From: Platanthera guangdongensis
Lineage: Eukaryota > Streptophyta > Magnoliopsida > Asparagales > Orchidaceae
Assembly (NCBI GenBank): GCA_039583875.1
Contig: CM077167.1
Span: 146,399,010 to 146,463,009 of the forward strand
Direction: 5' to 3'
Length of the DNA: 64,000 bases
Of the stretch, positions 30,139-64,000 are shown piece by piece. Within the stretch, counting starts at the first letter, position 1. Each line of letters begins with the position of its first letter. The position numbers and the translations under genes are program-made. The notes beneath the pieces were generated by a model. That model worked only from the letters and a program-made list of their open reading frames with translations, had not been told where the DNA came from and ran no database searches.

Positions 30139-30175
30139 TGTAACAGCCCAAAGTTCTGAAACAGGCAAATTTGGG

Positions 30176-30765
30176 TGACACGGCCTGGGACACGGGCGTG
30201 TTCCGGGGCGTGTCAGGTGACATGGCCTGCGACACGGGCGTGTCGCAGGGCGTGTCAAAGTTGTGTCGACGATTGGGCTTTGTCTCGACGATTTTTGTTC
30301 TCGACGATTCGTCGAGAGGAGGCACACGGCCCAGGACACGGGCGTGTCCAAGGCCGTGTGGCATGCTCGACGATTTTGTCTCGACGATCGTCGAGTGTCG
30401 AGACCTGAGTGTCGAGTGTCGAGAGTTTGAACACGGCCTGTGACACGGGCGTGTCACAGGGCGTGTCAAATCAGGCGACGAGCTCAGCCCGCCGAAAGAT
30501 TTTCGACAGGGCGTGTCGTTGTGTCGTGTCTGGGCACACGGCCTGGGACACGGGCGTGTCACAGGCCGTGTGAAGTCTCGGGATGATTTGGGATTTTTTT
30601 CACCCAGGTACACGGCCACAGACACGGGCATGTCTGAAGGCGTGTTGGTGACACGGCCCATGACACGGGCGTGTCCCGTGGGCATGTCACTGGTCTGGAT
30701 AAGTCGGTTGACCACCGCTTGAGGCACACGGCCAGGCACACGGCCGTGTTCGAGGCCGTGTCTGG
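30176..30765. repeat. Compound palindrome array in Tek-B 5' LTR
   Basis: About eight units have the plan ACACGGCC-n-GACACGGGCGTGTC-n-GGC(C)GTGT, each folding on itself; 30534-30572 is almost fully self-complementary over 38 bases. Between units (30262-30430) are TCGACGA/TCGTCGA words. The 3' LTR has the same block at about 37437-38027. Long ORFs on both strands here only translate the repeats. Confidence 0.88.
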
Positions 30766-31047
30766 TCAAAATTGGTGTTTTTGGCAGAATCGTGGCCGTC
30801 CATTCCTTCAGTCTGGATCCAAGGGCTGAAAGCTCTTCTTCTTTTTCCTTAAGGGCCGAAGTCAGAGATTGATTTCTCATTTACTTTGGCCTTAACCTTT
30901 CTTCAAGAGAGAGAAAGAGAGAAAGAAAGGAGGAGGAAGAAGGGAAGGGGGCTGCTGTTGGTGGTGCTGCGGTTTACCGGCGAGAGATCCGAAGCCAGCG
31001 TTGCGGAGGAAACGATCTTGCGCGTCTTGCAAGCTATCTTGGAATCC

Positions 31048-31071
31048 ATGGCACCGAAGCGATCGTCAAGG
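31048..31071 (+). CDS. gag: Proposed first coding exon of Tek-B gag (in LTR)
   Basis: ATG 31048 opens eight codons, MAPKRSSR, ending exactly before GTAACG, a plausible 5' splice site. Removing 31072-32699 (ending TTTGTGTTTAG) joins codon AGG to GTG at 32700 in the gag frame, giving RVTRS across the joint. Tek-C has RVTRS uninterrupted at the same place near its own Gag start, and Tek-D has MAPKKNTR before an identical GTAACGA. Codons 2 and 3 differ silently between Tek-B and Tek-D. The gag body has no ATG start near its 5' edge. Splicing itself is inferred. The 3' LTR copy of this exon is 38310-38333. Confidence 0.6.
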
Positions 31072-32699
31072 GTAACGACCTTTCTTCCTAAGCCATGTGA
31101 AGGCTTCCTTTTAGCATATCTTTGTGAGTTCCCCCACCAAGAGGTGGCTGGTTTTGGGACTCTTTGGGTGGATGTGTGAAATCCCCCTTGTTAGCATATA
31201 GATCCGGAACTGGAGTACGGAATAGGCATGCTGTGTGAAGCCCATCTGGATAGGTTGGTCTAGATTGGTGATGTTGCATACGAACCGGAGAAAACTCCGT
31301 GAAAAACGTGTAGTGTACGGAGTCTACGGGTTAGGCCTGCGAAAAGGAGTAGCAGGAAGTACTGGGGTGGTAGCCCAGGAAAATAGCCTTGTGATGGTTT
31401 TGGGTCCAACCTGTGAATGATGCACAGGTAGTCCTGGTGGGACCAGGAAAGACCCCTGACATTTGTGCTTATGCGGTGTCCACCTGTGGAGAGAGAGTCA
31501 CAGGAAGTACTGGTGTGCCCAGGAAAGACCCGCTGTTATTGTGAGAATTGGGTATCGAGAAGTACCCAGGCTTGAATGCCAGGAACAGGATTGGTGAGAC
31601 CGACCCGTGCCTTTGATATAGCCATGAGTACGCTGCACGCGGAAAGGGCAAGGCGATTTGAGCAACGGGGGGGGGTGGAGGATCCGACCTGCGCTATGTC
31701 CGTCTGACGTGAGACCAAAAGTGCGGTCTGTTGGAGCGCATAGCAAGAGTCTTCGGCCTGCGCGCCATGACACAAAGGGGGGCTACGGGCCATCCCGGTG
31801 TCCGAGGACTAACTCTGGCTGCACGCCATGGAGTAAATGCTCAAGAGTGTTACCGTTGGGTGTTAACCCTGATACGGTGGTGGGCAAGAGGTTGCCAGAA
31901 CACCAAGAATGTGCCCTGAGTGCACGGACCGTTGGGCCGGGCGGCGAACGGTTGTGATGGCTTGTGTGCGTGAAAGCACCTTTGATGATTGCCATACTTG
32001 TGATATGATATGCCTGCAGGGAAAATACCGCTGCCCCGAGAGGAGGGGTAGGGTCGTTATAATTTGGTCAGCTGAACGCTGACCGTTGCTTTTGTTTGCC
32101 ACCGTTGGGTGGATTGTCCTTCAACAGGTGCTGGAGAGCCGAGCGGATCGCATAGAGGTTGATGCTCCTGCTGGTGCTGCTGCTGCTGCTAGCCCTCGAA
32201 GGCTAATGTTCTTTTGAGTGTTTTCTTTTTGTGGCCGGCCTGCGCGCCAATTTGTTTAGGCCACTATATGAAAGCCCTGTAAGGCCATAAGGCCAATACC
32301 TTTGTTGTTGTAAGACATTCCTATATGTATATAAAATATGGAGTTTTATATTTGGACATTCATGAGGAGTTCAAGTAGTTTAGGCTTCCGCTAGAATGCT
32401 TGTGATAGGTGCGTTGCGCTACTCTGGTATCATCCTGTACCTTCACCGACTGTTTTGTGGTATATCCTGTGGGGCCCCGGCCGGACCTTCTAGAATATAT
32501 CATATGAACGGATGGGGTTGTTACATTTTTGGTATCGGTTGTCTTGGTCTTTCCCTCTCGAAGTCGTGGCCGCCTTCTTTTGTGGGGTGGCGAGCACGTG
32601 TTTGTGCAAACCAAAGTCTACGATTGAACTCCTGAATGTCCATGATAGGAATGCAGTTTGTATGTTTGAGGAACCTGCGTGTTCTTATTTTGTGTTTAG
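31072..32699 (+). other. Proposed 1628-nt intron spanning LTR end and primer site
   Basis: It starts GTAACG and ends TTTTGTGTTTAG. It contains the remaining LTR and the primer region, so a spliced RNA would be translatable but could not prime reverse transcription. The frame is kept across it. No other reading gives gag a start codon at the expected place. Not tested. Confidence 0.55.
32530..32541 (+). other. Tek-B primer binding site (weak match)
   Basis: TGGTATCGGTTG begins four bases after the LTR. Only the first seven bases match the initiator-Met complement without a break. Either the primer match is short or another tRNA is used. Confidence 0.45.
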
Positions 32700-33822
32700 G
32701 TGACACGAAGTGGAGCTGGGCCGTCTGCGTCCCAGCATTCTGATGAGAGTAGGGCACCAGCTGAGGTGCCTACACCTCCACCGTCTGCAGAGCATGTACG
32801 GTTAGTTGCGGAGGCATTAGTTACCATGATCCAAGGCCAGCCACTTATGCAGGAACAAGTGGATGTTATGCCAGAACAGGTGGAGGCAAGGCCGGAACCT
32901 GTAGTGGATGTGGCTCCTCGAACAGCTGAGAAGCAACTAACACGGTTCATGAGTTTCCATCCGCCTACATTTTCGGGAGCGGGTACTCCGACGCAGGCAG
33001 AGGATTGGTTATCGCGCGTCAAGAGAGTTATGACGGCGATTGGCACGGCGGAAAGTCAGAAGGTTACCTTAGCTACATTCTTGCTTGAAGGAGAAGCTCG
33101 ATTGTGGTGGGATGAGATAGAGTTACATCATTTGGCGGGTCGTCCGTTAGCTCAAGTTTCCATGAATGAATTCTCTCGACTGTTCCTAGCGAAGCACCTT
33201 CCTACGGCGCAACGGATAGCCATGGAAAACGAATTCCAAAGGTTAACTCAAGGTGATGGCAGTGTTGACGCGTACCTGCATGAGTTTACTCGCTTAGGGC
33301 GGTATGCGGGTTCGATATTTGCTGATGAGCAAAGGAAGACCAATAGGTTCTATGAAGGCCTGAGGGACGAGTTGAGGTTCCTTGTGTCAAGTTCTGTGAA
33401 CCAAGGTTTCCAAGCTTTGGTAGACACTGCAAGTGCGCTGGAGAAGGATATGAAGAGGGTGCAAGGGAAGAGAGCGTTGGCTGTGACGCAACCAGAGTGG
33501 AAGGCACCCCGATCGGGAAAATCGTTTTATAAGAAGAGATGGGGTAAGAAGTCCAAGTCTAGTGGACAAGCTCCTTCATCAGTTGCAACAGGAGCAACAT
33601 CAGGGGCAACCTCCAAACCAGAAACTCGTACCTGCTTTAATTGTGGTAGGATGGGGCATATTGCGCGAGATTGTCGGATGCCGCCAAAGAGTGAAAAGAA
33701 GGCGGGAGCATCTTATGCGGAGAAAGGAAAAGCGGTGGTGGATTCCTCTGCCTCGCAAGCGCAACCCCGGGTCTACAATCTTGGCCTGCAGGAGGCCATC
33801 AAGCAGAGTGACGTGGTCACAG
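32700..33822 (+). CDS. gag: Tek-B Gag, main exon
   Basis: The frame is open from 32700 as far as TAG 33867. The N-terminal part is Ala/Pro-rich. The retrotransposon gag core runs from about 32950 (FHPPTFSGAGTP) through WWDEIELHHL, FLAKHLPTAQR and YAGSIFADEQRKTNRFYEGLRDELRF-like landmarks, followed by a basic segment and one CCHC knuckle (CFNCGRMGHIARDC, about 33634). I end it at 33822, because GTATGAGT follows and the codons after it ([14 protein letters not shown]) look like translated intron. Without splicing it would stop at 33869 and give Gag alone. It forms the particle that holds element RNA. Confidence 0.88.
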
Positions 33823-33913
33823 GTATGAGTTTAGTTTTGCTTATGCTAATGTTTGTATGCTTAGCTTAGTACCCCTACGTTTGTGGTTTGTGTGTGTGAC
33901 ATGTTTGTCATAG
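33823..33913 (+). other. Proposed 91-nt intron joining Tek-B gag to pol
   Basis: It starts GTATGAGT and ends TTTGTCATAG, with a TGCTAAT branch-like site near 33843. It is T-rich. Removing it fuses VVTG (gag side) to [16 protein letters not shown] (protease side) in one frame, at the place where relatives read straight through. Its length is 1 mod 3, so it explains the frame change between gag and pol. Confidence 0.68.
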
Positions 33914-36900
33914 GCTTTGTGATGATTCGGGACACGCTGGCGCGAGCACTGTTTGATACAGGTGCATCGCATTCTTTTCTGTCTAGTGAATTTCTTACGC
34001 GGCTTAGGATACCCAGTCGTGCAAAGGCAGATAGCGTCAGAGTGGTGTTGCCGACTGGTTGTTGGATGCTTGCGGATCAAGCTTGCGATGTGGCGGTTCA
34101 AGTAGGAAGTCGGGATTTTTGTTTAACCGCATTTGTTTTGCCAATTTCGGAATTCGATGTGATTTTTGGGATGGATTGGCTTGCGGAGCAACATGCTATG
34201 ATTGATTGCCAGTCCAAAGAAATCACGTTGGGCCAGAATACCGAACAGGAGACCAAGTTCGCGGGTATGCGAGGAGTAGGCGGGACGTTGATGTCTGCAC
34301 TCCAGGTAGTCAAAGCTGTTCGGAAGGGTGCGGAGTGTTACTTTGCACTAATTCAGGCTGTTGAGCCTAAGGCCACTTTGTGCGAGGTTCCGATTGTGGC
34401 AGAATTTGCTGATGTGTTTCCCGCAGATCTCCCTGGGCTACCACCCCAGCGGGAGATTGACTTCACAATTGAGCTGGTGCCAGGTGCGAAACCAGTGGCC
34501 CGTTCGCCATATCGCGTTGCGCCTAAAGAGATGGCTGAGTTGAAGGTTCAACTACAAGAAATGCTAGAGCAAGGCTATATCCGCCCAAGTATGTCACCTT
34601 GGAGCGCGCCTGTGCTTTTTGTAAAGAAGAAAGATGGTGGGTTACGGTTGTGTATAGACTACCGTGAATTGAATAAGCTGACTGAGAAGAATAAGTATCC
34701 GATACCTCGGATTGATGAATTATTTGATCAGCTAGTGGGCTCGACCGTCTATTCAAAGTTGGACCTGAAGTCTGGTTATTACCAGTTAAGGATTCGGGAA
34801 GGTGACATTCCCAAAACCGCATTTGGAACGCGTTATGGGCACTATGAGTTCACAGTCATGCCCTTTGGCTTGTGCAATGCGCCCTCTGTGTTTATGGATT
34901 TGATGCACCGCATATTCCGTGAGTACCTGGATCTGTTTGTGATCGTGTTCATTGATGATATCCTGGTGTACTCAAAGTCGAAAGCTGAACATGAGATTCA
35001 CTTGCGGTTGGTGTTGAATATATTGAGGCAAAATCAGCTCTATGCCAAGTTCTCGAAGTGTGAGTTTTGGCTATCGTCAGTGGCATTTTTGGGCCATGTG
35101 GTGAGTGGAGCGGGCATTGCAGTGGATCCAGCGAAGATAAGAGCCATACAAGAATGGCCAATATTGTCTTCCGTGGCCGAAGTTAGGAGTTTCCTTGGAC
35201 TTGCGGGCTACTATAGAAGATTTGTGGAAAACTTCTCGCGGATCGCTTTGCCGCTAACCACACTGACGCGAAAGGATCAGAAGTTCGTTTGGACGCCAGA
35301 GTGCGCACGAGCTTTTGAAGAGCTGAAGGTTCGGTTGACCACGGCGCCGGTGTTGTCTTCGCCATGTGGAACCGATGGCTTTGTGATTTATAGTGATGCC
35401 TCAGGGAGCGGCTTAGGCTGCGTTCTTCTGCAGAGCGGAAAGGTGATTGCTTATGGCTCACGCCAGCTGAAGGTGCACGAGCGAAACTATCCCGTCCATG
35501 ATTTGGAACTAGCGGCGGTGATTTTTGCACTTAAGCTGTGGCGACACTACCTTTATGGAGTGAAGGTGGAGATCTATACTGACCATAAGAGCCTCAAGTA
35601 TCTATTAGAGCAGAAAGAGTTGAACATGCGACAACGAAGGTGGTTGGAGTTCCTTGGGGACTACACTTTCGAGATTCACTATACACCCGGGAAGGGAAAT
35701 GTTGTCGCGGATGCCTTAAGTCGGCGGGTTCCGGCTAGAGCGAATTGGTTACAAAGGCATGATGAACGTCTTATCCAGGAATTGGAGGCATTGGAGATCT
35801 CTTGTGTTGACAAGAATTCCACTACCAGTGCATGTTTGAACTGGACCGAGGTGCAATGTGACCTTGCGGACCGAGTTCGACGGGCAACGGAGTTGGATGA
35901 AGATCTCTTGCGCTATGTGACTGAAGGGCCAGAAGGCAAATTCACCTGGATTGACGGTCTGTTGCGAAAAGAAGGCCGATTGTGCATCCCAAATGTGGGG
36001 AAACTGAGGGAAGAACTGATGTATGAAGCACATTATACAAAGTATTCCATTCACCCCGGGAGCACAAAGATGTTCAACGATATGAAAAAGCTCTTTTGGT
36101 GGCCAGGGCTCAAGAAAGATATTGCCCTTTATGTGGCCAAATGCCAAACATGTGCGATGGTAAAGTCTGAATGCCAAAAGCCGGGCGGTTATTTGAAGTC
36201 ACTACCGATCCCAGTGTGGAAATTTGATGATATTTCCATGGATTTTGTGCATGGATTGCCAAGATCGCAGCGAGGAAATGATTCCATTTGGGTGATAGTT
36301 GACCGGTTAAAAAAAGTAGCACATTTTCTCCCGAACAGACGGGATGATTCAGTTGAATATTTGGCAAAGTTATACGTTGATCAGATTGTGCGGCTTCACG
36401 GTGTTCCTCGGAGCATCGTAAGTGATAGAGATGGGCGATTCACGTCAAATGATTGGAGGCTAGTTCACCGACTGTTGGGCACGAAGTTGACTTTCAGTAC
36501 GGCCTTTCATCCCCAAACGGATGGCCAGACTGAACGTACCAACAGAACAATGGAGGACATGCTCCGAATGTGCGCCCTTGATTTCGGAAAGAGATGGGAA
36601 GATCATCTCTATATGGTAGAGTTTGCTTATAATAACAGCTACCAGGCAAGTATTGGGATGGCACCATATGAAGCCCTATACGGAAGGAAGTGTCGTACTC
36701 CCTTGGCTTGGGTAGAAGCGGGTGAAGCTCGGATTGTTAGACCAAATGAGGTGGATGAAGCAAACTCAACCATTCGGACTATTCGAGAGAGATTGCTAGT
36801 TGCTCAAGATCGACAAGCGAAGTACTACAACGCCAAGCACCGGAACATTGAATTTGCGGTTGGCGATTTGGTCTACTTGAAGATCAAGCCATTCAAAGGT

Positions 36901-37278
36901 GTCTCCAGGATTCGACGAATGAAAAAGTTGAGTCCAAGGTTTTTGGGTCCCTTTGAAGTGGTTGAGCGAATTGGCGAAGCAGCTTATCGGCTAGCTCTGT
37001 CGGCGGACTTAGGTGGGTTACATGATGTCTTTCACATCTCGGTGCTGCGGAAAGCCGTGAAAGATCCAGCTCAAGTGATCGTGGATGATCGTGTGCCGGT
37101 GGAGTATGGGCTAACAACGAGAGTTAGACCCATTCGGATCGAAGATCGAGCCGAGAAACAGTTGCGGAACAAGACGGTCGGTATGGTGAATGTCCGGTGG
37201 GACAGCTGCGGCCGTGAAGAGTTGACGTGGGAACGCGAGCAGACCATGCGAGAAGAGTTCCCTGAGTTGTTTCTGTAA
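33914..37278 (+). CDS. pol: Tek-B Pol: protease, RT, RNase H, integrase, chromodomain
   Basis: The frame is open from 33883 to TAA 37278; the first ten codons are probably intron. The protease has [10 protein letters not shown]. Reverse transcriptase has [32 protein letters not shown] and catalytic FIDD near 34948-34960. RNase H has [23 protein letters not shown] and [10 protein letters not shown]. Integrase has the zinc site H-x-H...C-x2-C ([19 protein letters not shown]) and core residues D (MDFVHGLP), D (SDRDGRFTS) and E ([10 protein letters not shown]). The C-terminus (about residues 1075-1131) has a Tekay-type chromodomain with RPIRIEDR and [12 protein letters not shown], expected to guide integration to marked chromatin. 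No defect is visible. Confidence 0.95.
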
Positions 37279-37399: not shown

Positions 37400-39786
37400 T
37401 GTAACAGCCCAAAGTTCTGAAACAGGCAAATTTGGGTGACACGGCCTGGGACACGGGCGTGTTCCGGGCGCGTGTCAGGTGACACGGCCTGCGACACGGG
37501 CGTGTCGCAGGGCGTGTCAAAGTTGTGTCGACGATTGGGCTTTGTCTCGACGATTTTTGTTCTCGACGATTCGTCGAGAGGAGGCACACGGCCCAGGACA
37601 CGGGCGTGTCCAAGGCCGTGTGGCATGCTCGACGATTTTGTCTCGACGATCGTCGAGTGTCGAGACCTGAGTGTCGAGTGTCGAGAGTTTGAACACGGCC
37701 TGTGACACGGGCGTGTCACAGGGCGTGTCAAATCAGGCGACGAGCTCAGCCCGCCGAAAGATTTTCGACAGGGCGTGTCGTTGTGCCGTGTCTGGGCACA
37801 CGGCCTGGGACACGGGCGTGTCACAGGCCGTGTGAAGTCTCGGGATGATTTGGGATTTTTTTCACCCAGGTACACGGCCACAGACACGGGCGTGTCTGAA
37901 GGCGTGTTGGTGACACGGCCCATGACACGGGCGTGTCCCGTGGGCATGTCACTGGTCTGGATAAGTCGGTTGACCACCGCTTGAGGCACACGGCCAGGCA
38001 CACGGCCGTGTTCGAGGCCGTGTCTGGTCAAAATTGGTGTTTTTGGCAGAATCGTGGCCGTCCATTCCTTCAGTCTGGATCCAAGGGCTGAAAGCTCTTC
38101 TTCTTTTTCCTTAAGGGCCGAAGTCAGAGATTGATTTCTCATTTACTTTGGCCTTAACCTTTCTTCAAGAGAGAGAAAGAGAGAAAGAAAGGAGGAGGAA
38201 GAAGGGAAGGGGGCTACTGTTGGTGGTGCTGCGGTTTACCGGCGAGAGATCCGAAGCCAGCGTTGCGGAGGAAACGATCTTGCGCGTCTTGCAAGCTATC
38301 TTGGAATCCATGGCACCGAAGCGATCGTCAAGGGTAACGACCTTTCTTCCTAAGCCATGTGAAGGCTTCCTTTTAGCATATCTTTGTGAGTTCCCCCACC
38401 AAGAGGTGGCTGGTTTTGGGACTCTTTGGGTGGATGTGTGAAATCCCCCTTGTTAGCATATAGATCCGGAACTGGAGTACGGAATAGGCATGCTGTGTGA
38501 AGCCCATCTGGATAGGTTGGTCTAGATTGGTGATGTTGCATACGAACCGGAGAAAACTCCGTGAAAAACGTGTAGTGTACGGAGTCTACGGGTTAGGCCT
38601 GCGAAAAGGAGTAGCAGGAAGTACTGGGGTGGTAGCCCAGGAAAATAGCCTTGTGATGGTTTTGGGTCCAACCTGTGAATGATGCACAGGTAGTCCTGGT
38701 GGGACCAGGAAAGACCCCTGACATTTGTGCTTATGCGGTGTCCACCTGTGGAGAGAGAGTCACAGGAAGTACTGGTGTGCCCAGGAAAGACCCGCTGTTG
38801 TTGTGAGAATTGGGTATCGAGAAGTACCCAGGCTTGAATGCCAGGAACAGGATTGGTGAGACCGACCCGTGCCTTTGATATAGCCATGAGTACGCTGCAC
38901 GCGGAAAGGGCAAGGCGATTTGAGCAACGGGGGGGGTGGAGGATCCGACCTGCGCTATGTCCGTCTGACGTGAGACCAAAAGTGCGGTCTGTTGGAGCGC
39001 ATAGCAAGAGTCTTCGGCCTGCGCGCCATGACACAAAGGGGGGCTACGGGCCATCCCGGTGTCCGAGGACTAACTCTGGCTGCACGCCATGGAGTAAATG
39101 CTCAAGAGTGTTACCGTTGGGTGTTAACCCTGATACGGTGGTGGGCAAGAGGTTGCCAGAACACCAAGAATGTGCCCTGAGTGCACGGACCGTTGGGCCG
39201 GGCGGCGAACGGTTGTGATGGCTTGTGTGCGTGAAAGCACCTTTGATGATTGCCATACTTGTGATATGATATGCCTGCAGGGAAAATACCGCTGCCCCGA
39301 GAGGAGGGGTAGGGTCGTTATAATTTGGTCAGCTGAACGCTGACCGTTGCTTTTGTTTGCCACCGTTGGGTGGATTGTCCTTCAACAGGTGCTGGAGAGC
39401 CGAGCGGATCGCATAGAGGTTGATGCTCCTGCTGGTGCTGTTGCTGCTGCTAGCCCTCGAAGGCTAATGTTCTTTTGAGTGTTTTCTTTTTGTGGCCGGC
39501 CTGCGCGCCAATTTGTTTAGGCCACTATATGAAAGCCCTGTAAGGCCATAAGGCCAATACCTTTGTTGTTGTAAGACATTCCTATATGTATATAAAATAT
39601 GGAGTTTTATATTTGGACATTCATGAGGAGTTCAAGTAGTTTAGGCTTCCGCTAGAATGCTTGTGATAGGTGCGTTGCGCTACTCTGGTATCATCCTGTA
39701 CCTTCACCGACTGTTTTGTGGTATATCCTGTGGGGCCCCGGCCGGACCTTCTAGAATATATCATATGAACGGATGGGGTTGTTACA
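37400..39786 (+). repeat. Tek-B 3' LTR (2387 bp)
   Basis: Same length as the 5' LTR with about eight differences, for example one base fewer in the G-run near 38930 and GGCGCG in place of GGGGCG near 37468. It carries a second copy of the proposed first gag exon (38310-38333), which would be non-coding here. No host gene is present. Confidence 0.95.
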
Positions 39787-44914: not shown

Positions 44915-44974
44915 CTCGATTCCAGCGTTTCCACCATTTCTAGCCAAGGATCTTGTCACTCTTCTCGACGGCAT
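44915..44974 (-). CDS. gag: Proposed first gag exon of Tek-C (3' LTR copy, undamaged)
   Basis: On the minus strand ATG at 44974 opens 20 codons beginning MPSRRVTRSLARNGG and ending at GAG before GTGAGC, a good 5' splice site. The gag body opens at 49050 after ACGTGTAG, also in phase 0, so the joined frame is continuous. MPSRRVTRS resembles the basic start of other Tekay Gag proteins. The copy that would be transcribed as the leader is the one in the 5' LTR (51746-51807); it carries a 2-base gain that shifts the frame, so this element can no longer make the protein. Confidence 0.55.
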
Positions 44975-48113: not shown

Positions 48114-49050
48114 CTATGGGCAGTAACGTCGGATGTGGCCCTGTTGATTGCATTCGAAGCACACCCGCCCATAACGCCCCTCTAGTTGCCGAAACTGTTG
48201 AGGCAGTGGAGGTGGAGGCAATGCTGGCGGCTGTGGAATCGGTTGCTCCACTCTATAATTCCGGTGGAAACGTCCGCCACTTCTCTGATGTCCTCTTCCT
48301 CCTCTATAGTCGTGTCTCCTTCTATTGCTAGGGCCAGCTTCCATCACACCCTCAGCAGGCCTCTTACCACTTCCCAGGTGGTCCGCTTCTAGCCTCTTTT
48401 CCATGTCAATCATTTCCGTCAAGCTAGAGTCCGCTATAAACAAAAGGGCCTGCCTTAGGGGGTCCCGCAGCCCTTTGTAGAAGCGCTTAGCGTATCCTCT
48501 GTCATCCAATTCATATGAGTCCGCAAATCTCGCGAGATGTTTGAACTCTCGCTGATACTCCGTAACCGACTTCGATCCTTGCTTCAGTAGTAGAAATCTC
48601 TCTTCGAGTTCATCTCGAGCGGTCGAGGGAATGATGTGCTCTAAGAAGATTCCTGATAACTCGCTCCAACTGATCTCCGTATAAACTCGCCCTTGAAAGG
48701 TGGAGCCCATAAGGGACTTCCACCATCTCTTGGCGTGCAGTTCCAGGACAGACACTACCAATGTTACAGCCATGTTGGCTGGGCAAACAGATTCCTGCCA
48801 ATAGCTCCTGCACCGTATCGAGCGATTCTATTGTACGCATGGTCGACTCTGTCCCGAGGTAGGCGGGAGGGGAGAGAGAACGAAAAGTGCTCAACCAGTT
48901 TGAGCCAGGATCCTGTTGCTGGACTGGGGTCTGCTGCAACCTAAAGGCATCTAGGATGGTCGTGAGCGTCTGTCCCAACTCTGATTGTTGGAACTGAGTA
49001 GGTACGGAAGGGGCAGGAGTGCCCCCCACTGGCTCAGCATGCACTGGAAT
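48114..49050 (-). pseudogene. gag: Tek-C gag (frameshifted)
   Basis: The body starts at 49050 (phase 0 after a proposed acceptor ACGTGTAG). The first frame (49044-48610) has a Gln-rich start and LSPPAYLGTES, the family's (S)PPxFxG motif. A shift near 48745 moves to the frame 48773-48114, with KRWWKSLMG, FLEHIIPSTARDELEERFLLLKQGSKSV, RFYKGLRDPLR and one CCHC knuckle CFECNQQGHIRRYC before the stop. It would form the particle. The frameshift disables it. Confidence 0.87.
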
Positions 49051-49246: not shown

Positions 49247-52200
49247 TGTAAGACCCCCCCCCCCCCCCTCCCGAAACATAAAACATGGCACGAAGGGGGT
49301 CTTATGCCCAAAACAGCCGCCTTGCAGTAGCATTAGCACACGAGCTAACATGTACCACAAGACGCCTATCTGTTGGATATAACCAATATCAACCAAATGC
49401 AAACCCAACCAAAACATAACAGAAGCCAATCCACACATAAGTAGCATAAGTCCAAATATGCAACAATAAAAGAAGCTACAACGAGCTTCTAAAGTATCAG
49501 AAGTACAGCAAAATATGCCCAAAGGGGCTACATTAAAACCTCTCAAAGCTCACATCGATGAATGACAGTAACGACGGCACCGTCCCTTCAGGCCCTGTCG
49601 TCCTAGCCTGGCTTGTCCTGCTGCATAGTCTTTGGCTGCTCTACCTGTGGGGATTCCTCCTAAAAAGGAAGATGTAGCAACCGTTAGTTGAAAATTTTAA
49701 GTGGCTTTCACACCCGCTCCCCGGGCGACTCCTCGGCACCGGGCGAAGAAAGGAACAAGGGTACAATATATAAGTAGCAATATAAGCAAGTACAAGCAGA
49801 TGGATTAAGTACACCTATCGTGAGCAGTAATAGAAGAAATATATAACATGATTATCAGTAGTCTACTCTAGCAATTCCTACATAAGCTATATTGATCCAT
49901 CAAGTATGTAAATCTACAACAGGAAAGTAACTTAACTTATAAGAATGCCCATACAGACTTATAAGTTAAGGATCGGTTTAGCAGTAAAGTAACTCATCGT
50001 ATAGGAGTGCCCATAAAACTTATACGATGATGATCTTGTTATGCAATGTGTTGTAATGGTATGTATGCAATGCAATGACTCACCCAGAATCACGCACATG
50101 CAACCTCTATGTCGACACAGACTTGTAGTTCCCACTTTTCGAGCAAGTAGTTAACCTCTTAGGCATCAATCATCATGGTCAGGCGGTGACAGTAGAGCGG
50201 GCTTCTCTACTACTAAGTGGGTATCCACACTACTTCGCTTAGGCCTCTGTACACCTTAACGCTACGAACACAACAGCGGAGCCCCATGCATACTACGGCC
50301 CAGCGGGAGTCTCGGGTAGATGTACACCGAGAACCAAGCCCTGAACTGGCCTTGTGTGACCCGGAAGGAGCCTCAGAAAAAGCATGAGGACCAAGCCCAA
50401 CCGTCCACTTGGCGCGGAAGGAGCCACGGAAAATGTGCACCAAAGACCAAGCCCAACCGCCCAAGGTCTAACTGTCAACTCCCGTCGTTGTGACGACTGG
50501 CGAGCCCGTAGACCTGTCACACTATCCTTAACCCAGGATTACGACATCGCGTGTCGACTCACACCGCATGTAATTCCACATCACCGTGGCATGGAAGGAT
50601 CCTCGGGAATGAACACCGAGGACCAAGTCCAACCGTTCATTTATGTCACTTCTCAACACTATCCAAACCAGTGCGGTCAACACCCGCACTTACATCCTTT
50701 CACAATGCAACCGGTAGGGAGATACCACTCTAAGCATTGGACTACTAAATTCATTCTGTTAAACAATTATTCATATGGGCATATATTAGCATCGTGCATT
50801 TCATTTCCAAATGATTTTAACACATTATTAACATGATGCGCATTTTTTTGGTTCACCAATTTCTACCAAATTGTTTCGTTTAAGTACGCTTCACATCACA
50901 AATCATTTACGTGGGAAACCATTCATCAAACCTCATCATTCATTGAACTATGATGGCTAACCTAAAAGAGTTCACCCAACCTCAATGCCAATTTGCTACA
51001 TCGTTTCTACCGAGTCCAAACCCGGTTCTACACCAACCCCTGAATTTTAGGTGCAGGACACCTTCAGGACAGCGATTTAGACCGGAGATTCCTGAAGCTA
51101 TATGAATCTGGTGAAGGCATGTAACCCATCATTGGAAAGGTCTTTCCATGGGTTACAACTTTCATGTTCAGACCACAACCCATATCCGACATTAACACAC
51201 TTGAAATCGGATTTACGTCCGCTGCGTACAGAACACAATTTCTGCACGCTTAGTTTGTCAGCCGTCAATTTTCATTCAGACTTTCCCTTGGCTATAGACA
51301 TCGCCTGAAGTCGTGCAACAACTCGTTGGAAAGGCATTTGCAAGGACTTCGACTTTCGTGTTTAGTCGAAAGCCCAGTTCTGGACATACCACACTTGAAA
51401 ATGGCCAAGAAGATCATTGCGTGCAAAATACAGATTCTGCAACGCACCTTAAGGCGGAATGAACGGCATCGGTTCGTCTTCCTCCTTAATTCGATCTTCC
51501 CAAAAACACATCCAGTCTTCCTCCTCAATTATTCACCCTCTTAAGGCCACGTTTCTTCACGAAACCATCCTCCACCATCACATAGAAGGAAGGAGAGGTT
51601 GAAGACTTCTAAACCCTAGAACACAAGTCCTAGCATGGCCTTTCCTAAGAAACTTCTCCTCATAAATCTAGACTCTCTTGAGTCGATATCTCTCCTAAGA
51701 AATAACTAAAGATCTAGCAACCAAGGGAGAGGGGAGGAAGCTCACCTCGTTTCCGGAATTTCCACCATTTCTGCCCAAAAGGATCTTGTCACTCTTCTCG
51801 ACGACATCTTCTTCTCCTCGGCAACGACGGTCCTTCGTGGGGTGTAGATTGGCTCCAGCACCTCCTTCCTCTTCTCCGGCAGTTTTCACCCTCAGAAATG
51901 GTTGGAAGTGGAATGAAAACGGCTAGGGTTTCTCTTCCCCCCTTATATGTGAAATGATACGGGTAGGGACATGCCCGTGTCCTTACCCGTGTCCTGCTCG
52001 TGTGAAGCATCGTCGACGGTTCGACTGCCGTTTAGATAGAAAAACACGGGTAGGAATATGCATGTGTCTCTTCCCGTGTCCAAGTGACACGGCCGTGTTG
52101 CTGGTCCGTGTCCTGCTCGGGTCTTGCTTCGTCGAGTACCACTTGACGCATACGGGTAGGGACACGCCTGTGTCTCTACCCGTGTCCTCATACACACGGG

Positions 52201-52642
52201 TAGGGACACGCCCGTATCCATACCCGTGTCCTTCTCTAGACCTACTCGAGTAATCAACTCGAGTGCTGGCTGGAGACACACGAGTATGGACAAGCCCGTG
52301 TCTCTACTCGTATCCTTCTCGGGACACTCTTCGTAGACCTCTACTCGACGCACACAGGTAGGGACACGTCGTGTCCCTACCTTGTCCTCATACACACGGG
52401 TAGTGATACGCCCGTGTCACTACCTGTGTCCTTCTCTGGAATAACTCGAGTCATCGACTCGAGTACTGGGTGGACACACACGGGTAGGGACACGCCCGTG
52501 TCTCTACCCATGTCCTTCTCTGGGCTAACTTTTCCTCCCCTACACAAGTATAAGCCTATCTGCCAGCACTTCCATGAGCCCAAATTACCTCTTCTAACTC
52601 AAAAGCGCGCACGAGGGGTCTAGAGCGAATCGGGACATTACA
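49247..52642 (-). repeat. Tek-C 5' LTR (right copy, 3396 bp)
   Basis: Partner of 42425-45875, with several percent differences by eye, so Tek-C is older than Tek-B. A long C-run starts near 49253. It carries the palindrome array at 51957-52515 but not the 160-bp palindrome. The proposed first gag exon (51746-51807) has two extra bases and is out of frame. Confidence 0.92.
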
Positions 52643-62383: not shown

Positions 62384-62451
62384 TGTAATGCCCCGAAACT
62401 CAAAAGAGCGACGGGGGACGTTTTGGGCCAGTTTTGGGTTCTGGCAGGAGG

Positions 62452-63105
62452 CACACGGCCTGGGACACGGGCGTGTCCCAGGGCGTGTCAGGCTTATGTC
62501 GACACTCAGCCGGCGAATTCGACATTTTGCTCTCGACGTTGTGTCGAGACAGGCCACACGGCCTGAGACACGGGCGTGTCTCAGGGCGTGTCGAGCCCGT
62601 GTCGACACTCAGCCCGCGAAGTCGACACTCTGCGCTCGACGAAGTGTCGAGACATGGCACACGGCCTGAGACACGGGCGTGTCTCAGGGCATGTCGAGCC
62701 CGTGTCAACACTCGTCCCGGGGAGTCGATGAATTTTGCTCAACGAAATGTCGAGATAAGGCACACGGCCTCGGACACGGGCGTGTCCAAGGCCGTGTCGT
62801 GAGGTCGACGAACTTCGCTCGACGAAGTGTCGAGTGTCGAGACCATGTACACGGCCTGGAGCCCAGGCGTGTTGAGGTAGACACGGGCAAGTACATGGGC
62901 GTGTCCAGTACCCGTGTAGTTCTCGGGTTGTTTTCGGGATAAATCGCTGGGGGCACACGGCCGACCACACGGCCGTGTCAGGTGGAACACGGGCGTGTCA
63001 GGTTGAACACGGTCGTGCTCGATGCCCGTGTGTTGTTCCATGCTCATCGATTTTGACGGCAAATGAGGCACACGGCCCTGGACACGGGCGTGTGCAAGGT
63101 CGTGT
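62452..63105. repeat. Compound palindrome array in Tek-D LTR
   Basis: About seven units of the ACACGGCC-GACACGGGCGTGTC-GGC(C)GTGTC type, with TCGACxCT and TCGACGAA words between. It includes GTGTCGACACTCAGC at 62599-62613, a 15-mer also present in the SIRE-A LTR. ORFs on both strands are repeat translations. Confidence 0.87.
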
Positions 63106-63394
63106 TTGGTCCAGATTGTACATTTCATACCCGAATCAAAGCCGTTCATTTCTTTAATTGGTGATCCAATGACTGGGGGTTGTTCCTGATGGGATATACC
63201 CGGGATTGGACCTTTGAAACCCTCACTTTTACTTGAGTGGTTATCTTTCTAAAGCTTAGAGAGAGAGGAGAGCCAAGGAAGGAATAAGAAGCTAGATCCG
63301 ACCATTGGAGGAGCTTCGAAGCTCCAAATCACGAGCCGACTCTGGATCCACGGAGGCAAAGAGAGTGCGGTGCTTTTCATCCACTTACTTTTCC

Positions 63395-63418
63395 ATGGCG
63401 CCAAAGAAGAACACTAGG
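63395..63418 (+). CDS. gag: Proposed first gag exon of Tek-D (in LTR)
   Basis: ATG 63395 opens MAPKKNTR and is followed at once by GTAACG. Read without splicing it stops after eight more codons. The match to Tek-B (MAPKRSSR then GTAACG), with silent changes in codons 2 and 3 and divergence right after the GT, fits a short coding exon. The gag body is beyond the window. Confidence 0.55.
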
Positions 63419-64000
63419 GTAACGATTCTCTTCTTGAGCATGTGAAGCTCTCCTTCTTTGCATAGGAAGCCCGCTCTCGTGAGTTTGCGGTGAGTTGGAG
63501 GCGTTCCTTCAGGTAGTTATGTAAAGTCCCCGTTGTGTAAAGTCCGTAAGCGAGAACGGACATAGGCATGGTGTGTGAAGCCTACCCGGACATGTTGGTC
63601 TGGATCGGTGATGTTGCATTGCATAAATGCCGGAGAAGAATCTGTGCGATTGTTTTTTTTCGGGTTTTTCTACGTGGTAGATTGCAACAGGGAGCCTTGG
63701 GGATTAACCCAAAGGTGCACCCGGAAAACTAGGCAGATGCGTGATCTTACCAACTTGGAGGCCTGAGAGCCAACTTGAACATAACCGAGTTATGTGAATT
63801 GTGTGATGAAAATGAGACTCGGGAGAAGTTTGACCTGCGCATATGTCTTAAATTGTCATTGCAATGTGAGCACGGGTTAGATGGAACCGTACTCATTTCT
63901 ATGTCGTTCGGTTAGAGCCGTTGGCATAGATGAGGGTCTTCGGTAGTCTATGGCTTAAATTGTCGTGACCCATGCCGGGAAGACAAATTGCTCATATGTT

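Follow-up and report, generated by a model that had tools for sequence, protein, structure and literature searches.

Candidate gag-start exons in the long terminal repeats of Ty3/Gypsy elements of Platanthera guangdongensis, probably joined to gag by splicing

Where does translation of Gag begin in a retrotransposon whose gag frame opens directly behind an in-frame stop codon? This question is raised by Tek-B, an element in a 64,000-nt stretch of the orchid Platanthera guangdongensis (hereafter the window; C21:146399010-146463009 in a genome of 4,245,561,818 bases and 274 contigs). Tek-B is a young long terminal repeat (LTR) retrotransposon with the layout of Ty3/Gypsy elements: paired LTRs flanked by a 5-bp target duplication (GTATA), gag, and then protease, reverse transcriptase, RNase H and integrase. 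An earlier reading of the window (the original prediction) had proposed that Gag starts inside the LTR and is spliced over an intron of 1.6 kb. Based on comparisons within the DNA, we consider it very likely that Tek-B and its relatives are Ty3/Gypsy elements that make Gag from a spliced RNA.

The LTR of Tek-B contains the short frame MAPKRSSR, which ends exactly at GTAACG, and the gag frame opens at 32700 right behind a TAG, as had been predicted. The exon was correctly delimited, although it comprises ATG plus seven codons, eight in all, rather than ATG plus eight. The statement that gag lacks an ATG near its start was not borne out, the first gag-frame ATG being at 32826, 42 codons in. Two arguments originally given for the join proved to be cheap by chance. 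Joining the exons does keep the frame, but 77 phase-0 ATG..GT pairs occur in 30139-32690 and frame-keeping was therefore dropped as evidence; a G/GTRA donor is found in three of these pairs, Tek-B exon 1 among them. The likeness of the joined RVTRS to Tek-C, another element in the window, is present, and Tek-C reads it within one exon; taken alone it is weak, since 126 of 7553 random peptides placed after exon 1 scored as well, with 2.8 to 4.1% for shuffles, and it was no longer used as main evidence. The exon pair was therefore tested by comparison with Tek-D, element E and other relatives. For this, the continuation of Tek-D was read from bases beyond the window (segment L009), and further relatives, designated by letters, were taken from the next 200 kb.

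Compared with each other, Tek-B and Tek-D show change of the coding type both before and after the proposed intron. In exon 1, 10 of 24 bases differ while all eight residues are identical or similar (BLOSUM62 score 30), a score with a probability of 1.3e-4 to 2.9e-4 under random placement of the changes (7e-5 by column shuffle, 3.4e-4 in a rerun). The normalised score was 0.74 in frame 0, compared to 0.16 to 0.27, or stops, in the other two frames, and just past the donor the two elements align only with gaps. In Tek-D, gag opens at L009:2523 directly behind GTACCACTATAG, with a TAG of its own, and its first residues, VTESGAGP, match VTRSGAGP of Tek-B in an ungapped alignment that begins at residue 1 and extends over 47 residues. 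In the 42 codons that precede the first in-frame ATG of Tek-B (126 sites), differences between the two numbered 14, 13 and 28 by codon position, and the protein score of these codons was reached in none of 20000 random trials. The bases upstream of the acceptor AG are 35 to 42% alike; readthrough of the stop codon was rejected because of this lack of conservation before the TAG. The comparison therefore indicates that the sequence from the AG on is code without a start of its own, and that the LTR exon is code without a conserved continuation of its own. In both elements a V-T codon pair follows donor and acceptor alike, and the intron may conceivably have been gained when an AGGT segment was duplicated.

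The surroundings of the two exons were also compared with chance. The window has 6237 stop codons when all frames of both strands are counted, and six of them were TAGs with a pyrimidine tract at least equal to that before Tek-B gag, itself included. The ATG-free stretch before Tek-B exon 1 measures 361 nt and is the longest of 35 in the LTR; gaps reaching 350 nt make up 12 of 2310 in the window. The corresponding stretch is 203 nt in Tek-D (longest of 32 in the LTR part inside the window), 162 and 181 nt in the two Tek-C LTRs (third of 79 and second of 78), and 240 nt in the LTR designated L.

The layout is not confined to Tek-B and recurs in diverged relatives in the same genome, which, together with the coding-type evolution, supports the exon pair. 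Element E has MDPKRSSR/GTAACG in its LTR, and its gag opens with ATRSGAA behind ACCATTGTAG; LTR L, to which no gag was tied, reads MASKRSSR/GTAACG, the donor thus being identical in B, D, E and L. A degenerate pattern of exon 1 including the donor, with the amino acids of codons 1-4 and 8 fixed and codons 5-7 free, gave 20721 + 20585 = 41,306 exact matches in the 4.25-Gb genome, a count of patterns and not of curated elements, compared to 0 for the control. Among 100 listed matches there were 44 distinct 24-mers, a stop in one (14% expected at random), and Arg at codon 5 in 37, written with four codons. Six further elements were picked by place from the listed matches, each having a second match about 7 kb downstream; in five of them an acceptor-like TAG stands directly before the gag frame, which opens 1505 to 1537 nt downstream of the exon-1 ATG, and a primer-site-like sequence lies between exon 1 and gag. 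With these, nine elements of the Tek-B type with gag were examined (B, D, E and L030-L035), and gag opens right behind an acceptor-like TAG in eight (B, D, E, L030, L031, L032, L034, L035). Relatives show TTTGGTATCAGACT at the position of the primer-binding-site-like motif of Tek-B, TGGTATC, which we take to resemble an initiator-Met primer site. The exons, their coding constraint and phase, the acceptor at the frame opening and the recurrence across families are features of the DNA itself. Close upstream of exon 1 of element E, an inverted piece of a related LTR was observed (L029, approximately C21:146658834-146659175, minus strand), which begins at the exon-1 position and reads CATGGCTTCGAAGAAAACTACAAGGGTAATG.

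Table 1. Coordinates of Tek-B features and of related features in the window.
Feature	Position	Strand	Remarks
Tek-B 5' LTR	30139..32525	+	99.67% identity with 37400-39786; ends TGTAAC..GTTACA
Candidate Gag exon 1, MAPKRSSR, within LTR	31048..31071	+	ATG at 31048, eight codons, then GTAACG at 31072
Proposed intron 1, GTAACG...TTTAG	31072..32699	+	Would span LTR tail and primer site; predicted from sequence
TATATAAAATA	32328..32338	+	Possible second promoter or part of poly(A) region
Primer-binding-site-like TGGTATC	32530..32536	+	Just 3' of LTR
Acceptor tract TTATTTTGTGTTTAG	32685..32699	+	Terminal TAG is in-frame stop before gag
Gag exon 2, capsid and zinc knuckle	32700..33822	+	PF03732, E-value 1.7e-17; PF00098
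Proposed intron 2, CAG/GTATGAG..CATAG/GC	33823..33913	+	Gag/protease border; 91 nt
Protease-reverse transcriptase-RNase H-integrase frame	33914..37278	+	Chromodomain-like end
Tek-B 3' LTR	37400..39786	+	Exon-1 copy at 38310, same 30 bases
Tek-D 5' LTR	62384..64000	+	Runs past window end, continued in L009
Tek-D exon 1, MAPKKNTR/GTAACG	63395..63418	+	Exon 2 opens at L009:2523
Tek-C 3' LTR exon copy, MPSRRVTRSLARNGGNAGIE/GTGAGC	44915..44974	-	60 nt, phase 0, ends GAG/GTGAGC
Tek-C 5' LTR exon copy, MSSRRVTRS..	51746..51807	-	62 nt
Tek-C gag exon 2 start, behind ..TTTACGTGTAG	48980..49050	-	Phase 0
Tek-B LTR-internal acceptor-like site	32128	+	Phase 0 with exon 1, stop soon after
Tek-C LTR-internal acceptor-like site	about 49659	-	Phase 0 with exon 1, stop soon after
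Repeat-rich LTR start	30139-30800		
Repeat-rich LTR start	51980-52520	-	
Repeat-rich LTR start	62440-63100		

Other layouts were found in further relatives. Tek-C had been regarded as an uninterrupted control, a role for which it was rejected as it carries an LTR exon of its own, of 20 codons (Table 1), and has no gag-frame ATG ahead of the SPPAYLG block. Element H shares with Tek-C the 60-nt phase-0 LTR exon and the GAG/GTGAG donor, in two LTRs; the pair of the Tek-C 3' copy and the second H copy (C3-H2) shows 12 differences, 5, 1 and 6 by codon position (null 0.008). Shortly before its end, the Tek-C LTR contains a long run of G (about 49254-49268, minus strand), which is also seen in H and J. 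In G and K the N-terminus is unsplit: the gag ATG lies downstream of the primer site, and the proteins begin MAPKRRVARSTPQ and MRRGRTTRSTPQ, close to the joined MAPKRSSR-VTRSGAG. Their gag ATGs follow an acceptor-like site by 1 or 2 nt, a placement shared by 89 of 9262 ATGs in the scanned sequence, and a leader intron may therefore exist there too, with its boundary before codon 1; for G and K this is suggestive only. At L019-L021 (C21:146560474-146575736), an H-type relative of Tek-C has a G-type element nested in its LTR.

A number of results weigh against the proposal that Gag is made from a spliced RNA. The exon-1 test was modest for D-E (0.006) and D-L (0.012) and not significant for the close pairs B-E (0.066), B-L (0.12) and E-L (0.25), and the first 25 codons of exon 2 taken alone gave weaker values (B-E 0.003, D-E 0.027, B-D 0.047). 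For codon 5 of the listed matches, a permutation control gave 0.91 and was uninformative. The donor GTAACG is, we assume, weak relative to the plant consensus; intron 1 is overall not T-rich (27.5% T); and D, Tek-C and most relatives have unremarkable acceptor tracts, a lax tract (TAG; among 16 bases, no fewer than 9 pyrimidines and 6 T) being reached by 431 of the 6237 stops. The ATG-free stretch of E is just 39 nt long, and L033 is broken at the gag start. The 5' LTR copy of the Tek-C exon is 2 nt longer than the 3' copy and thus out of phase, both H copies are decayed (a stop in H1, TTG for ATG in H2), and no LTR exon was found in F, I and J with the motifs used. With the patterns used, no TATA-like site was found upstream of Tek-B exon 1, the only one in the LTR being at 32328. 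Finally, the genome gives no direct proof of splicing. Intron-free copies of the joined exons numbered 0 among exact matches in the genome, and with at most one mismatch there were 3, compared to 11 for the control, none of them convincing; this fits a spliced RNA that cannot be copied and equally fits no splicing.

From this arrangement we infer that splicing takes place, where transcription starts and that messenger and genome are kept apart. Transcription would start in the LTR upstream of 31048, exon 1 then consisting of a 5' leader and the eight codons; in both Tek-C LTRs a TATA-like site lies about 140 nt upstream of the ATG. The spliceosome would join 31071 to 32700 and remove approximately 1.63 kb, which takes in the LTR tail together with the primer-binding site. 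That an RNA spliced in this way lacks the primer site and the LTR tail, as originally proposed, follows from the geometry. Such an RNA, reading MAPKRSSR-VTRSGAG..., would be the messenger and would be unable to prime reverse transcription, while the unspliced RNA would keep the primer site and could serve as genome, the Gag N-terminus having no start there. The weak donor would leave some RNA unspliced. With a start ahead of exon 1, the R region could be longer than 1 kb and the 5' poly(A) site would have to be ignored; for TATATAAAATA, a role as second promoter or a place in the poly(A) region is conceivable. A promoter at 32328 is possible for genomic RNA, although it cannot give the Gag N-terminus a start. 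A wider proposal strikes us as evenly balanced between true and false: that splicing is an obligate switch, Gag coming only from RNA without the primer site and the genome only from unspliced RNA, and that the leader intron may be general in the group with a shifting position, preceding codon 1 in G and K and following codon 8 in B, D and E and codon 20 in Tek-C and H.

If there were no intron, the RNA would start near 32328 and Gag would begin at the internal ATG at 32826 or at a non-AUG codon (GTG, 32700). Three observations would agree with this: the patterns used revealed no other TATA-like site in the Tek-B LTR, E has an in-frame ATG close to the same position (198698), and exon 2 opens with GTG in both B and D. 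We nevertheless judge it very unlikely, since the 42 codons ahead of ATG 32826 are under coding constraint and need a start, ten other ATGs lie between 32355 and 32826, and the constraint on exon 1 would be left unexplained. Moreover, the position of the first in-frame ATG of exon 2 is not conserved (42 codons in for B, 41 for E, 66 for D, 58 for four elements and 22 for L031), and exon 2 of E, L031 and Tek-C opens with a codon other than GTG.

The other two explanations accept that the LTR frame matters. Exon 1 could be real and spliced mainly to an acceptor within the LTR, yielding a short LTR protein or a leader RNA, the join to gag being minor or absent. Acceptor-like sites in phase 0 with exon 1 occur at similar places in the LTRs of Tek-B and Tek-C (Table 1), and by eye that of Tek-C (CTAAC..TTCCTTTTTAG) looks better than its gag acceptor. 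The Tek-C site is, however, lost in its own 3' LTR, the single motif sought in Tek-D was absent, the short peptides are unalike, and the alignment of the B and C LTR tails (188.4) is little above that of 100 shuffles (mean 151.9, maximum 185.8). Gag would also still lack a start, and this course of events appears no less improbable than the absence of an intron. Least credible, and highly improbable, is that the LTR ATG belongs to an upstream frame or a regulatory DNA element and is conserved for a purpose unrelated to Gag: the unspliced frame does continue for some codons in B and D, but the constraint follows codons, just past the donor only gapped alignment is obtained, and exon 2 again has no start. 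A spliced Gag messenger that begins in the LTR remains the reading that we prefer.

A second intron is proposed at the border of gag and protease (Table 1). This candidate contains 46.2% T compared to 23.1% in its flanks, and taking out 33823-33913 joins gag and pol in frame. A comparable gap follows VISG in G. The donor is identical in E, although the gap of that element is only about 41 nt. The chromodomain match at the end of the Tek-B integrase is weak (PF00385, E-value 0.013, below the cut-off of Pfam). Tekay is a label taken over from the original prediction and is used here as a provisional name. The viral contigs scanned with gag and pol yielded no relatives. Degenerate tandem arrays of near-palindromic repeats of the type ACACGGGCGTGTC crowd the first part of all three LTRs.

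The layout had been put forward as one not known to be described, and a literature search, which left out most subscription papers, likewise turned up no LTR-borne gag-start exon followed by an intron that covers the primer site. Retroviruses have a donor in the leader as proposed here (foamy virus; the major donor of human immunodeficiency virus 1, HIV-1), but their Gag is made from unspliced RNA, whereas Gag of the present elements would require splicing. In avian leukosis virus, env is joined by splicing to the AUG of Gag with a few of its codons. In Ty1 of yeast, Gag begins inside the LTR and is read in a continuous frame with no intron. In HIV-1 as in foamy virus, U1 at the donor keeps the 5' poly(A) site from being used (PMC12789967), as may be needed in Tek-B. 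The nearest demonstrated mechanism is that of P4 of rice tungro bacilliform virus (RTBV; Caulimoviridae), where a short leader frame is, as proposed here, spliced to a distal frame and where splicing also regulates the unspliced pregenomic RNA left for translation and reverse transcription (PMC5902531). RTBV differs in being a virus without LTRs, and its fused frame is P4 and not the capsid gene.

Among plant elements, the LTR donor prediction for Diaspora, a Ty3/Gypsy element of soybean, is the nearest earlier hint. Five LTR donors were predicted 1400-2200 bp upstream of gag-pol, and two predicted acceptors flank the gag start codon (PMC1142308). Diaspora differs in that a 5' untranslated region intron was predicted with medium confidence and gag retains its own start codon; the 2005 paper left the relevance open and noted the absence of any reported intron upstream of gag (PMC1142308). 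BARE1 of barley (Ty1/Copia) has separate RNA pools for translation and replication, and splicing affects its Gag output, but the 104-nt intron, placed at the gag end, gives a Gag-only RNA, the pools are set by promoter, and gag starts outside the LTR (PMC3735527). BARE has two promoters, which can be compared with the possible second promoter at 32328 (PMC3735527). Spliced RNA is also described for Ogre, Bagy2 and CRR (Ty3/Gypsy) and for EVADE (Copia), the introns described lying within or between coding parts (gag-pro/pol, env, rt) and not over the LTR tail and primer site (PMC6317226, PMC3735527, PMC12786077); intron 2 of Tek-B is nearer in kind to that of Ogre. A 2025 review describes plant LTR elements as generally without introns, with Ogre and EVADE as notable exceptions (PMC12786077). 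Retrosat2, RIRE3 and RIRE8 of rice have LTRs of about 3 kb, comparable to those of Tek-B, and differ in having a separate open reading frame (ORF0) upstream of gag-pol; the word intron is absent from the main text (PMC3485330). Retrosat-2 has been classed under Tekay (PMC6317226). In sunflower, one set of expressed elements contained no Tekay members (PMC7730604), and a second held fewer of them than expected, Tekay being under-represented (PMC9784723); RNA of the elements studied here may likewise be rare.

How one RNA is balanced between translation and reverse transcription is a major question for retroelements (PMC3735527). If the proposed splicing is true, the division between messenger and genome would be built into the structure of the gene. 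Annotation that lets gag begin at the first ATG within its frame would then lose the true N-terminus, and the elements affected would be those carrying an exon-1 pattern that is present 41,306 times in one genome. Each such LTR would also provide a start codon and a splice donor, which could form chimeric transcripts with neighbouring genes.

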